Below, piece after piece: positions 1,725 to 30,851 of a stretch of 37,899 bases of DNA; the first letter of the stretch is position 1, and every line of letters begins with the position of its first letter. The translations under genes and the position numbers were made by a program. The notes beneath the pieces were generated by a model, which was not told the DNA's origin, ran no database searches, and saw only the letters and a list, made by a program, of their open reading frames with translations. Source of the stretch: a virus. The stretch is taken from the IMG/VR virus record IMGVR_UViG_3300044655_000842, positions 1 to 37,899 of that record. One strand, written 5' to 3'.

Positions 1725-2010
1725 TGCCAATCTCCATCAAAATAAAACCACCGTCTTCTAATAGGAAGTCTGTTCCATCTTCCTGTTCCAAGTTAAAAAC
1801 AGCAAAATCTGGGTCATTCCAATACGAATTAGCCAAATCAGCACGAGTAGTACCGACAGCCCCAGTAGCAACATAAAAATCATAACCAAGGGTATTGCGA
1901 AAGTTGTAGCCGTTATCCAGAGCAAAGGCGTACATCAAATCGCCCAAAGTAGACAAAGTAGGATATTGCGCCTTTAACGCAACATACATCGCATCATTAG
2001 TTGTAGCCAT
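1717..2010 (-). CDS. Hypothetical late protein
   Basis: A 97-residue acidic protein (LEQEDGTDFLLEDGGFI near its end) with aromatic residues spread through the middle. It overlaps the terminase small subunit gene by 14 bp and the following gene by 8 bp, so it is translated in the late block. No domain was recognised. The position between the terminase small subunit and fibre-like genes suggests a small virion or fibre-assembly protein, but the sequence does not show this. Confidence 0.55.
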   Translation of the reverse strand: MATTNDAMYVALKAQYPTLSTLGDLMYAFALDNGYNFRNTLGYDFYVATGAVGTTRADLANSYWNDPDFAVFNLEQEDGTDFLLEDGGFILMEIGNG

Positions 2011-2443
2011 AGCCCCCTACTGTCTTTGCTGAATCCAAACGCAACTGCTGCTCACTAGCGGCGGAAGCCGCAATTAACTCAGCCAACTGCGCATCCGACA
2101 ACTCCGAAACCTTGCCAGAATGTTCAACCTGCAACTGAACAGGCGCAAGCCGCCCAGTAGCCTGAAGATACAACTTAGCACTATTGTTATCACCATCCAA
2201 AGCACGTTGAAACAAATTATCCAACAACTGCTGAGTCCGCTCAGGACTCCCCTGAGACTCAGCAACACGCCTCTCCCAAGCAGCCTTAAACGCAGGCTTC
2301 TTCTTCCACCTACGCAACGTAGACTCATCAATCTCCTCAGCGTGAGCATACTTCTCCTGAGAAGAAGGGACACGAGCGACACTAGGTGTACATAGCCAAT
2401 CTAAAAATTTTTGTTGTCGGGCATCCAATAATTCCGTCATCAC
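1997..2443 (-). CDS. terS: Terminase small subunit
   Basis: A 148-residue protein that probably recognises phage DNA for packaging. The first ~60 residues form a helix-turn-helix-like region (QQKFLDWLCTP ... ESTLRRWKKKPAFKAAWERR), the usual fold for DNA recognition in small terminases. The middle (RTQQLLDNLFQRALDGDNNSAKLYLQATGRL) is the helical segment that typically follows it and builds the oligomer ring. The start is GTG at 2443 or ATG at 2440. It is the first gene of the minus-strand block, next to the tandem 11-bp repeats. It lies about 5 kb (counted around the circle) from the large subunit, with fibre and lysis genes in between. Confidence 0.8.
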   Translation of the reverse strand: MMTELLDARQQKFLDWLCTPSVARVPSSQEKYAHAEEIDESTLRRWKKKPAFKAAWERRVAESQGSPERTQQLLDNLFQRALDGDNNSAKLYLQATGRLAPVQLQVEHSGKVSELSDAQLAELIAASAASEQQLRLDSAKTVGGYGYN

Positions 2444-2461
2444 AATAGAGTTACCTGTTCC
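2443..2461 (-). promoter_or_regulatory. GGAAC-N9-TATTG junction motif upstream of terS
   Basis: The minus strand reads AGGAAC, 9 nt, TATTG and then runs directly into the GTG/ATG start of the terminase small subunit. It matches the motif seen at five other late-gene gaps, with G in place of the last A. Confidence 0.4.
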
Positions 2462-2465
2462 TAAT

Positions 2466-2531
2466 TGTTACAGGAATGTTAAATCTTTGTGACATTTGTG
2501 TAACATTTCTGTAACAATCATGTAACATTCT
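2466..2531. repeat. Six tandem 11-bp repeats, iteron-like
   Basis: Six consecutive units with exact 11-bp register start at 2466, 2477, 2488, 2499, 2510 and 2521. The last four read TGTGACATTTG, TGTAACATTTC, TGTAACAATCA and TGTAACATTCT; the first two (TGTTACAGGAA, TGTTAAATCTT) are more diverged but keep TGTNA. The spacing is about one helical turn, so a protein would bind the same DNA face repeatedly. It lies between the divergent early and late units and next to terS. It could be a replication-initiator array, an operator array or a packaging recognition site. Confidence 0.75.
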
Positions 2532-2565
2532 AGATAAAACCCAATCGCTGTCTAGGCTGTAACCA

Positions 2566-2584: not shown

Positions 2585-2648
2585 ATTAGGGAACAGCACT
2601 CTTTTTAGTAGGGGGGACTGAGGGGGGTCAGTGCCTGACTGTTAGATA

Positions 2649-2709: not shown

Positions 2710-2997
2710 ATGCCAAAACTACAGCGAATAGACGGAAAAGTTAAACACTATGCGTACACCCCTGAAGGTAAACGTCAATACGAACGTGACAGGGCTAAAG
2801 CAAAAATGAGTCCGTCAACATGGAACGAAGACGAAGCGGGTTTACCTTATGTGTACACAAACCCTAAGATGGCTAAAAGAAAACGTTCTACACCTAAGGT
2901 GGACCAATCTAAACGCCGTAAACCGACACCAGTTAAATCCAAAAAACAAGGCATGGGTGGACCTAGTTGGGGTGAGTTCCCTAAACCCACAAAATAA
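2710..2997 (+). CDS. Small basic protein, first gene of plus-strand unit
   Basis: A 95-residue Lys/Arg-rich protein with a GAGGAAG ribosome site before ATG. The N-terminal part (KHYAYTPEGKRQYERDRAK) looks like a short globular region; the C-terminal half is Lys- and Pro-rich and probably disordered. The stop TAA and the next ATG overlap by one base (TAATG). Together with the next two genes it forms a cassette of small basic proteins. Such composition suits nucleic-acid binding, but no family was recognised. Confidence 0.65.
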   Translation: MPKLQRIDGKVKHYAYTPEGKRQYERDRAKAKMSPSTWNEDEAGLPYVYTNPKMAKRKRSTPKVDQSKRRKPTPVKSKKQGMGGPSWGEFPKPTK

Positions 2998-3398
2998 TGG
3001 GTTACACAAAACCATCACTACGGGCAACAATCGTAGCGTCAGTAAAAGCAGGAACCAAAGGTGGACGTTCAGGGCAATGGTCAGCACGTAAAGCACAACT
3101 AGTAGCCCAAAAATATGAAGCCGCAGGCGGCGGATACACAGGAAACAAAACCAGTAAACAAAAATCTTTATCCAAATGGGGTAAAGAAAAATGGCGAACC
3201 AAATCAGGTAAACCATCCACCCAAGGACCCAAAGCCACAGGTGAACGCTATTTGCCATCATCAGCCATAAAATCTCTTAGCGCCGCAGAATACGCTGCAA
3301 CCAGTCGCAAAAAACGTGAAGGCACTAAAAAAGGTAAACAGTTTGTACCAAACACACCAGCAGCAAAAAAGGCTGGACGCAAAGCAAGAGGTAAATAA
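2997..3398 (+). CDS. DUF5872-like basic protein
   Basis: A 133-residue basic protein. Residues ~18-50 contain KGGRSGQWSARKAQLVAQKY followed by GGGYTG, which I recognise as the core of the DUF5872 family, known from phages and large DNA viruses but without an established function. The C-terminal part is Lys-rich (SRKKREGTKKGKQ ... KKAGRKARGK) and probably disordered. It is joined by one-base overlaps (TAATG) to both neighbours, so the three basic proteins are likely translated together. A role in binding DNA or RNA is inferred only from charge. Confidence 0.7.
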   Translation: MGYTKPSLRATIVASVKAGTKGGRSGQWSARKAQLVAQKYEAAGGGYTGNKTSKQKSLSKWGKEKWRTKSGKPSTQGPKATGERYLPSSAIKSLSAAEYAATSRKKREGTKKGKQFVPNTPAAKKAGRKARGK

Positions 3399-12402: not shown

Positions 12403-13317
12403 ATGATAGACGACAAACTATTAGACAATTACATCAAGTTGTTTCGTGGTCGTGGTGACGTTTACGGCACAGACAGTGGCGGTTGCGCTAAACTACCATT
12501 GAACCGTGACACATTTGAACGTCACTTAACAGGCACAGAACGTATCGGTGTATATCCGATTGTCCCCATTGACGGTGTGCCGTCCGTTGTGTGGGGCTGT
12601 TCAGATTTTGACTTAGGATTAGAGAAATCTTTATATCAAGCCCGACAGTTACATGACGCACTACGTGCAGGTGGTGTCATCTCGTGGATAGAACGTTCAC
12701 GTTCCAAAGGCTACCATGTTTGGGTGTTTGCCACAGAACCAGTGTCCGCCGAGATTATGCGCAACATGCTATTGGCTGCACATCAAGTCGCTGACGTACC
12801 AGCCACAGAAGTAAACCCCAAACAAACCACACTAAAACACGGACAATACGGCAACTATGTCCGTCTACCATACCCCAACTACACTGACGACACAACACAC
12901 AACCAACGAGTTCTAAACCCCAACGACTTCCAATCAGTTCTACATATCTGCGACTTCGTAGCAATGGCTACAGCCAACCGTACATCACCAGCCGACATCG
13001 CCCGCCTCGCTGCACATTATAAACCTGTAATCAAACCAACCCCAGGCATTATGCCCACAGAATATGACGCAACATTAGACGAGGCTATGCAAGTTCTGTC
13101 TCCGCTAGGTAAAGTCATTTGGCGTGACGGACCATTACCGTCCAAAGACCGTTCATCAACATTAGCCAAACTCGGTTACGAGTGCGTCAAATCGGGACTT
13201 AACCCTAGTCAAACCAAAACCATTATCAAAACCGCTGACAAGCGGTGGGGCAAATATCATTTACGTCCCAACGGCGACCTAGAAATAGACAAACTAGTTA
13301 TACGGGTACACTCATGA
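12403..13317 (+). CDS. Archaeo-eukaryotic-type primase (AEP, TOTE-like)
   Basis: A 304-residue protein. GCSDFD (65-70) gives the two metal-binding Asp residues and IERSRSKGYHVWVFA (96-110) gives the Ser-x-GxHxW signature of the AEP fold, close to the type seen in TOTE-like primases. The C-terminal third is helical (about 200-300, ending KWGKYH ... IDKLVI) and may be a PriCT-like accessory domain. It follows the helicase by 9 nt and overlaps the Ntn hydrolase gene by 4 bp. AEP enzymes can also extend primers, which matters because no DNA polymerase gene was found. Confidence 0.8.
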   Translation: MIDDKLLDNYIKLFRGRGDVYGTDSGGCAKLPLNRDTFERHLTGTERIGVYPIVPIDGVPSVVWGCSDFDLGLEKSLYQARQLHDALRAGGVISWIERSRSKGYHVWVFATEPVSAEIMRNMLLAAHQVADVPATEVNPKQTTLKHGQYGNYVRLPYPNYTDDTTHNQRVLNPNDFQSVLHICDFVAMATANRTSPADIARLAAHYKPVIKPTPGIMPTEYDATLDEAMQVLSPLGKVIWRDGPLPSKDRSSTLAKLGYECVKSGLNPSQTKTIIKTADKRWGKYHLRPNGDLEIDKLVIRVHS

Positions 13318-13898
13318 CAACCATTCTAGCAATACAAGGTGACGACTATTGTGCAATCGGTTCAGATTCACAATGGACAGATGATTACGGGCGTGTCGGC
13401 AAAATGACACAATCCAAAATAGTGACAGTCGGCAAATACTTTATAGGTGTCGCAGGCGACACACGTGGCGCAAACATCATACAACACGTATTCAACCCAC
13501 CACAACTACCACCCAAACTATCAGGCAACAAACTCACAAAGTTTATAGTCAGCCAATTCATTCCAGCCTACAGAGAATGTTTAGAACAAAACGGTTTAGG
13601 TTTACCACAATACGAATCCAATCCAGCAGAAGCATCTATAGACACATTAGTGTGCGCTAACGGTGTTATCTACCAAATAGACTCCGACTACAGCACGGAA
13701 ATGGACGCAAACAATCTGTACGCTATCGGCTCAGGGTCACATTATGGGCTGGGTGCAATGCAAATGTACGCTAGTAATAAAAGAATAACCCAGACATCAG
13801 CGAAACGTGTTCTGATAAAATCATTAACTATCAGCGCCAAATTTGATGGTAACTCTGGCGCACCATTCCACACATTTATGCAGATTAGGAAAACATGA
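13314..13898 (+). CDS. Proteasome beta/HslV-like Ntn hydrolase
   Basis: A 194-residue protein starting at ATG 13314, which overlaps the primase stop. The sequence begins MTTILAIQGDDYCAIGSDSQ. If Met is removed, Thr1 is the free nucleophile, Asp17 falls exactly at its family position and Lys34 (SKIV) matches Lys33 of the family within one residue. YAIGSGSHYGLGAMQ near residue 140-155 corresponds to the GSGG region carrying Ser129 in the proteasome and HslV. The protein is close to HslV length, with no propeptide. Related proteins are known in phages of proteasome-bearing hosts; their targets are not known. The neighbours are replication genes. Confidence 0.85.
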   Translation: MTTILAIQGDDYCAIGSDSQWTDDYGRVGKMTQSKIVTVGKYFIGVAGDTRGANIIQHVFNPPQLPPKLSGNKLTKFIVSQFIPAYRECLEQNGLGLPQYESNPAEASIDTLVCANGVIYQIDSDYSTEMDANNLYAIGSGSHYGLGAMQMYASNKRITQTSAKRVLIKSLTISAKFDGNSGAPFHTFMQIRKT

Positions 13899-14242: not shown

Positions 14243-14700
14243 CAAAAAAATCTGACTACGATATTGGACCAATGCCCCACGATTGGCAAACAGACCTGTC
14301 GTTTGGACATAAAGGTGAAAAACTTGTATCCGAATTTTTAGAAAAGATTAGTAGCGGTGCGTTTGAAGTTAAAACAGACCGATACCGTAACGGCAGAATG
14401 GTGTTAGAAATGGTGCAGAATCCTCGCCGCCGTCTTGACGACAACGGCGAACCATTATGGCAACCATCAGGTTTAGCAGTGACAAAAGCGGAATGGTGGG
14501 TGTACGTGTATGCCCTTGACGGTTCGTTTGTGATTGTGTCTGTGCCACGCATTAAACGTTATTTGAAAGCCAACAAAGATAGATTCAACCCCAAAAACTA
14601 TCATAAGTTTGCGTGGCGTAGCGGTAATCCCAGCATGGGATACCTGCTACAACCTGAAGATGTTATGGACATGATGATAAATGAGAAATATGATTCCTGA
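14239..14700 (+). CDS. Putative PD-(D/E)XK nuclease
   Basis: A 153-residue protein. GHKGEKLVSEFLEKISSG (23-40) followed by AFEVKTDRYRNGRMVLEM (41-58) reads as a restriction-endonuclease fold: a helix with conserved Glu27, then a strand with Glu43-x-Lys45, then a strand with Glu57. The central Asp of the motif is not certain. It overlaps rusA by 4 bp. It may be a second DNA-processing enzyme for replication intermediates or host DNA. Confidence 0.65.
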   Translation: MTKKSDYDIGPMPHDWQTDLSFGHKGEKLVSEFLEKISSGAFEVKTDRYRNGRMVLEMVQNPRRRLDDNGEPLWQPSGLAVTKAEWWVYVYALDGSFVIVSVPRIKRYLKANKDRFNPKNYHKFAWRSGNPSMGYLLQPEDVMDMMINEKYDS

Positions 14701-15034
14701 AAATATACCTAATCAAAAAAAATATCGTTCCACCGAAATAGAATGGTTAATGCAACCATACGAACAAGAAAGCGATTACGATGATGATATCGTGTTGTTT
14801 GACGCTGTTTCCGAAACCGTAGCATCTATGGACGAAACGGATAGGCAGATGATATACTTGATATACTATGAAAGAAGGACGTTTCAAGAAGCGGCACGTA
14901 TTGTGGGGATATCTGCAAAATCGCATGCGTGGCGTAAAACTAAATCAGCGATACAAAAACTGGAAGTTTTGTTAAAACAAAACCCAGTTATTATGGATAT
15001 ATTAAACAAAAAATATGGCATACTAGGAGAATAA
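14681..15034 (+). CDS. Sigma-70 region 4-like protein
   Basis: A protein of 117 residues from ATG 14681 or 114 from ATG 14690. The 20-bp overlap with the nuclease gene makes the start uncertain. Residues ~53-95 match the order of sigma region 4: DETDRQMIYLIYYERRTFQE, then AARIVGIS, then a recognition helix AWRKTKSAIQKLEVLL. There is no region 2, so it is not a full sigma factor; it may be an activator or a sigma-like protein that redirects host RNA polymerase to late promoters. It is the only clear candidate regulator of late genes in the window. Confidence 0.65.
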   Translation: MRNMIPENIPNQKKYRSTEIEWLMQPYEQESDYDDDIVLFDAVSETVASMDETDRQMIYLIYYERRTFQEAARIVGISAKSHAWRKTKSAIQKLEVLLKQNPVIMDILNKKYGILGE

Positions 15035-30795: not shown

Positions 30796-30851
30796 CTAGA
30801 CGGGGGGTATGGTGGATACCCCCCGCTGGTTTAGATGCGTCAAAACGCATC
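30784..30851 (-). other. Three consecutive hairpins between portal and scaffold genes
   Basis: The gap holds TCTAGG-CGTTC-CCTAGA (30784-30800), CGGGGGGTAT-GGTGG-ATACCCCCCG (30801-30825, perfect 10 bp) and GATGCGT-CAAA-ACGCATC (30834-30851, perfect 7 bp). None has a T-run. They could protect or process mRNA, or partly terminate, so that scaffold and capsid are made in larger amounts than portal. Confidence 0.65.

Follow-up and report, generated by a model that had tools for sequence, protein, structure and literature searches.

Between the two divergent gene blocks of a 37,899-bp virus record, which is referred to here in its entirety as the window, lies an array of six units that repeat at exactly 11 bp (positions 2466 to 2531), and we consider this array to be a candidate tandem operator at which a winged-helix response regulator of the OmpR/PhoB family, supplied by the host, would bind, a reading to which we assign a probability of roughly 0.6. 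PhoB is the likeliest member of that family, and that it is itself the binder is a somewhat less than even bet. The operator reading is favoured because the phase of the array is conserved, because the array sits at divergent starts, because similar arrays precede promoters elsewhere and because its architecture is that of a PHO box, which appears to be the best match among known sites. We infer the identity of the binder, its host origin and the sign of regulation.

The array and its genomic setting

Read on the plus strand, the six units are TGTTACAGGAA (starting at 2466), TGTTAAATCTT (2477), TGTGACATTTG (2488), TGTAACATTTC (2499), TGTAACAATCA (2510) and TGTAACATTCT (2521). They consist of a TGTNACA core, palindromic except for its middle base, and four variable bases, and the array as a whole is assigned to no strand. 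A preliminary description of this DNA had reported six TGTNA units at exact 11-bp spacing, and this was borne out by the coordinates, by shuffling and by TRF. When all fixed periods from 8 to 24 bp were considered, runs of TGTNA reached at most three units in 100 Markov shuffles, as against six in the window, and the four-unit TGTNACA pattern at 11 bp, allowing up to two mismatches, has three matches in the window, all of them within the array, where none is expected; TRF detects the array with a period of 11 and 3.8 copies (2488-2529). The same description had set the last four units apart as a group, and indeed four same-direction units of the form TGTNACATTYN, PHO-box-like and with GTAACA on the early strand, occupy 2488-2531 (plus strand). 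To this we add the refinement that the two units nearest terS (2466-2487) are better read on the terS (minus) strand, as TTTAACATTCC TGTAACAATTA. As four units read the early strand and two the opposite one, the array is a 4+2 composite held in a single helical phase. No Rfam match indicated an RNA element at the array.

The array is positioned between a plus-strand early block and a minus-strand block led by terS. Plus-strand genes span 2.7 to about 15.5 kb, starting with a gene for a protein without assigned function (2710-2997, plus strand), and their products include small basic proteins, a CobS-like ATPase, a nuclease, a DnaB-like helicase, an AEP primase, RusA and a sigma-region-4-like protein. 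Genes of the minus strand fill two stretches, one leading from terS (2443) to the contig start and the other from the contig end to 16.3 kb; terL, a P22/SU10-like portal, an adaptor and tail proteins are among their products. Several relatives carry terminal repeats of 73-127 bp, as in circular assemblies, and terS is therefore plausibly the first gene of the late block. The terS gene encodes the small terminase subunit (1997-2443, minus strand; phrog_2538, E 5.7e-07); its start could be ATG at 2440 instead of GTG at 2443 (GTGATGACG).

Several shorter elements flank the array. The motif YTAGGGAAC, which resembles a gene-start or late-promoter element, is present at both divergent starts, as TAGGAACAG on the terS side (2455-2463, minus strand) and as TTAGGGAAC on the early side (2586-2594, plus strand), and it also marks the starts of many late genes across these genomes; we regard it as a candidate for a phage-specific promoter or gene-start element that is as yet without a name. 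A further copy is found in the window at 30799 (minus strand), and at late-block gene starts of relatives (L370-L389) the motif recurs with a TATAGTAT-like sequence 6-12 bp on. A fixed −35/−10 reading of YTAGGGAAC-TATAGT was tried and set aside, as the spacing shifts by several bases and a promoter could not be called with certainty. Upstream of the early-side copy, the window's clade has a Fur-family-like palindrome and other relatives have an 11-bp ACAAGT pair. In the window the palindrome, TGAGAATCATTCCCA (2571-2585, no strand), stands directly before the motif, is imperfect and is not clearly above chance, while its perfect, Fur/Zur-like form, TGAGAATNATTCTCA, occurs in several relatives. 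Finally, a sigma70-like candidate promoter directed toward terS, TAGACA-N16-TAGAAT (2527-2554, minus strand), has a −10 hexamer that overlaps the first array unit in that direction. As a promoter it is weakly supported: the sigma70-like search returned 2 matches in the window against 1.1 expected in shuffles, and the candidate is found in 8 of the 13 sequences of the window's clade and is absent from the other clade.

It had been suggested in the preliminary description that related phages be searched for an array at the same place with a changed sequence and an unchanged 11-bp phase, and precisely this occurs among the relatives gathered via TerS (48 loci), namely arrays of 4-6 units upstream of terS with altered spacers and unaltered phase. 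The window's clade retains six units with substitutions, and one member (L010) is short by exactly one 11-bp unit, from which it follows that the phase survives a change in copy number. Clade 2 (L019-L032, with L056 and L058 alike) has four units, TGTAACANAAC TGTAACAAAGA TTTAACACAAC TGTAACANNCT, in which core positions 2-7 hold 2.0 bits of information and the four spacer bases 1.3-1.75 bits; in L028 only degenerate TGTTAAC units are left, still in the 11-bp register when read by eye. In several clade 2 phages a second four-unit GTAACA array occurs about 1.15 kb from the first, and such second arrays (L022 405, L023 3760, L026 878, L029 3762 and L035 3702) have a stop codon on one side and a terminator-like hairpin on the other. 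The locus is devoid of a TGTNACA array in L036-L045, and among those loci that were read an ACAAGT pair stands 11 bp apart, or nearly so, beside the early-side motif. The distance from the array to the terS-side motif is 1, 2, 3, 6 or 16 bp in relatives, mostly 1-3 bp, and is not helically phased.

PHO boxes and arrays in other genomes

The PHO box is built from direct repeats of an 11-nt unit, of whose bases seven are conserved and four less so (PMC4415409). The array shares with it the 11-nt direct repeat, the 7+4 pattern of conservation (clear in clade 2 and weaker in the window's clade), a tandem arrangement that requires at least two head-to-tail units and here has four in one direction at 2488-2531, and a position upstream of gene blocks. 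It differs in that the window has an array of the 4-6-unit type and of mixed direction, and in that the adjacent genes are those of packaging, with terS, and early genes without assigned function rather than phosphate genes.

Near-identical GTAACA arrays do stand before bacterial pstS, pstC, Pho4 and Na/Pi transporter genes, as revealed by a blind scan for three GTAACA at 11 bp in which each bacterial or archaeal species was represented by a single genome. Phosphate transport was the annotated class that stood out beside the arrays among the matches listed: the 81 ORFs next to intergenic arrays, again among the matches listed, included by Pfam 4 PBP_like_2 (PstS type), 4 PHO4, 3 Na_Pi_cotrans, 3 with a PhoU domain, 2 BPD_transp_1 (PstC) and 2 OmpR/PhoB-type regulators, while 81 control ORFs from the same loci yielded no phosphate family among 25 families listed, singletons lower in the list being possible. 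Two of the PHO4 genes (L186 and L192) are divergent from a gene for an OmpR/PhoB-type regulator, with the array in between. The phyla in which arrays precede phosphate genes are unrelated (Bacteroidota, Nitrospirae, Nitrospinota and a deltaproteobacterium), and at pstC of Nitrospirae and Nitrospinota the array ends some 9-10 bp before a GATAAT hexamer, a gap that fits a PHO box standing in for the −35.

The same scan placed 11-bp GTAACA arrays 14-194 nt upstream of tyrosine integrase-like genes of Bacteroidetes (L141, L153, L172, L193, L198 and L200), and six Arm-DNA-bind members appeared in the Pfam tally of array-adjacent genes, among the matches listed; these arrays are perhaps arm-type integrase sites. 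As a reading of the phage array, integrase arm sites were rejected, no integrase having scored above the Pfam cut-off in the phage records searched.

Comparable arrays are also present in viruses. A scan of viral contigs showed that in many of the marine T4-like kind gene starts are preceded by four units, and a second scan, in which TTTACA-N16-18-TATAAT was required downstream, returned 93 stretches, or 100 sites once joined, a count that includes related, non-independent contigs. Measured from the last unit, the −35 is 14-15 bp away at 58 of these sites, 24-25 bp at 21, 35-36 bp at 13 and 19-21 bp at 8, where degenerate last units may account for some of the longer distances seen with fewer units; four-unit arrays were placed exclusively at 14-15 or 24-25 bp among the 100 sites. 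Steps of about 10.5 bp are the mark of a protein that has to keep to a single side of the helix with respect to RNA polymerase. In the marine viral contigs L249-L467, four-unit GTTACA arrays stand before TTTACA-N17-TATAAT, for example at 8040-8123 of L319. These GTTACA arrays share with that of the window the core, the 11-bp period, usually four units and the position upstream of promoters; they differ in that a canonical sigma70 promoter follows them at a helical distance that is fixed, and in the genes that they drive, which include CobT-like peptidases, CobS-like ATPases and small early proteins without assigned function. No such array was found in the named marine T4-like phage HTVC008M or in the gp41 surroundings of P-SSM3 and S-SCSM2R, and BLAST of a marine array against named phages gave weak matches only (E near 0.2-8).

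Candidate binders and competing explanations

The preliminary description had sought the binder among phage proteins, and the evidence directs us to a host regulator instead. The OmpR/PhoB-type C-terminal domain (PF00486) has no match in 26 phage records, the window included, so any binder of this family would be the host's, and a phage-encoded OmpR/PhoB regulator was set aside on this ground. As to the host, the phage collection held no nucleotide relative of the window, a search of the phage for tRNA genes found none, and relatives of TerL, MCP and early proteins indicate different hosts. SD-like sites at 31 of 39 genes disfavour Bacteroidetes hosts. Some phage proteins have actinophage relatives, and WhiB, a marker usual in actinophages, was found in none of the records searched.

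We propose that each 11-bp unit would take up one monomer of the phosphorylated regulator, with the monomers aligned head to tail on one face of the helix, and that the bound regulator would set the firing strength of the divergent phage promoters, above all that of the terS-led late block. Its effect could be of either sign, since activator-like and repressor-like positions are both present: the end of the array just upstream of the terS-side YTAGGGAAC motif, by 1-3 bp in most relatives, would suit an activator, and in the window's clade a regulator lying over the −10/start region of the TAGACA-N16-TAGAAT candidate would be placed to repress. Several points speak against a PhoB-type operator, namely that the neighbours are not phosphate genes, that the distance to the terS-side motif is unphased, that L036-L045 and HTVC008M are without the array, that the sigma70 candidate is confined to the window's clade and that sites of other regulators fit too.

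Those regulators, MtrA, GlnR and WalR, belong to the same family as PhoB, and their sites likewise fit an 11-bp period. If one of them were the binder, which we think unlikely, the late genes would be tied to the cell-cycle, envelope or nitrogen state of the host. The MtrA consensus GTAACCNNNNNGTAACC (PMC12323332) and the GlnR box GTnAC-n6-GTnAC (PMC10704036) of Actinobacteria have GTAAC cores 11 bp apart, as does the array, which reproduces the GlnR box four consecutive times, in sequence form only, and the S. aureus WalR motif TGTHH-N6-WGTNDD (PMC10746227) fits it as well; moreover, some array-adjacent genes of Clostridia encode CAP and NlpC/P60 proteins and are not phosphate genes, and the actinophage relatives of some phage proteins would be in keeping with an actinobacterial regulator. 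However, GTAAC is followed in nearly all units by A where the MtrA consensus has C, the phages lack WhiB and the host is not shown to be actinobacterial, and it is phosphate transport that stands out in the blind scan, among the matches listed.

Of the three options raised in the preliminary description, the one that gained is an operator, through its phase, its position, the promoter-upstream arrays elsewhere and its PHO-box form, while a TerS site and replication iterons both lost ground. An operator might also serve a phage-encoded DNA-binding protein that does not belong to the OmpR family and brings about the change from early to late transcription; the array does lie between divergent blocks, and a sigma-region-4-like protein (14681-15034) and uncharacterised early proteins exist, but a private regulator would leave unexplained the same core and period before bacterial phosphate genes and unrelated T4-like promoters, and we rate this as quite improbable. 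A terminase (pac/cos) recognition site bound by TerS would account for the location of the array directly before terS, a frequent place for such sites, and the P22-like portal suggests headful packaging. The array, however, is not found wherever the DNA-binding segment of TerS is conserved, for this HTH segment is nearly identical in the array-less L038 and L045 (DDSTLRRWKKKPAFK) and in the window (DESTLRRWKKKPAFK); with a second array about 1.15 kb away in clade 2 and similar arrays at promoters of unrelated phages, a TerS site is very improbable. The chance that the units are replication iterons seems slighter still. In-phase tandem repeats near early genes, in a genome that encodes a DnaB-like helicase and an AEP primase, would suit them, but no initiator was recognised among the proteins covered by Pfam/PHROG scans, similar arrays stand at promoters elsewhere, and the GC skew, which had been proposed as a check for an origin, merely tracks the coding strands and is uninformative.

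Possible coupling to the host's nutritional state

Control of phage genes by host response regulators is documented for a few cyanophage genes: host PhoB binds promoters of cyanophage S-PM2d, and PhoBR controls the phage pstS of P-SSM2 (PMC10976474). The candidate operator would share with these promoters that a phage promoter is read by the response regulator of a host two-component system; the cyanophage sites differ in their consensus (PyTTAAPyPyT/A), in serving auxiliary and replication genes and not a terminase-led block, and in phage type and host. Predicted Pho boxes in phage genomes are unreliable without binding data (PMC10976474), a caution that applies to the array of the window. 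If the array does bind host PhoB, whole phage gene blocks, packaging included, would be directly coupled to phosphate stress, and it would become possible to test a question of long standing, namely how the lytic phages of waters poor in nutrients time their bursts when the host starves.

A broader proposition, which we put forward tentatively and hold to be doubtful when its parts are taken jointly, is that in a widespread group of aquatic phages the master early/late promoter region may be wired directly to host nutrient sensors, to that for phosphate by a PhoB array and, in some phages, to one for metal by a Fur-family box, and that the four-unit, helically phased array may be a general and so far undescribed early-promoter module of marine T4-like phages. 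Were such wiring real, the start of particle production would be gated by the nutritional state of the host; the marine module, for its part, could provide a strong signature by which to search for phages that respond to the two-component systems of their hosts.

Three other products of the window may be mentioned. The 117-aa protein encoded at 14681-15034 matches sigma-70 region 4 only and is a candidate phage factor for redirecting RNA polymerase. Positions 13245-13898 encode a phage protein of the Proteasome/HslV fold, whose nearest solved relative is the beta-proteobacterial proteasome homologue BPH. The small basic early protein encoded at 2997-3398 is 54-72% identical to proteins from phages of SAR11, Roseobacter and Methylophilales, the phage backbone being unrelated, in an apparent case of recent exchange among aquatic phages.
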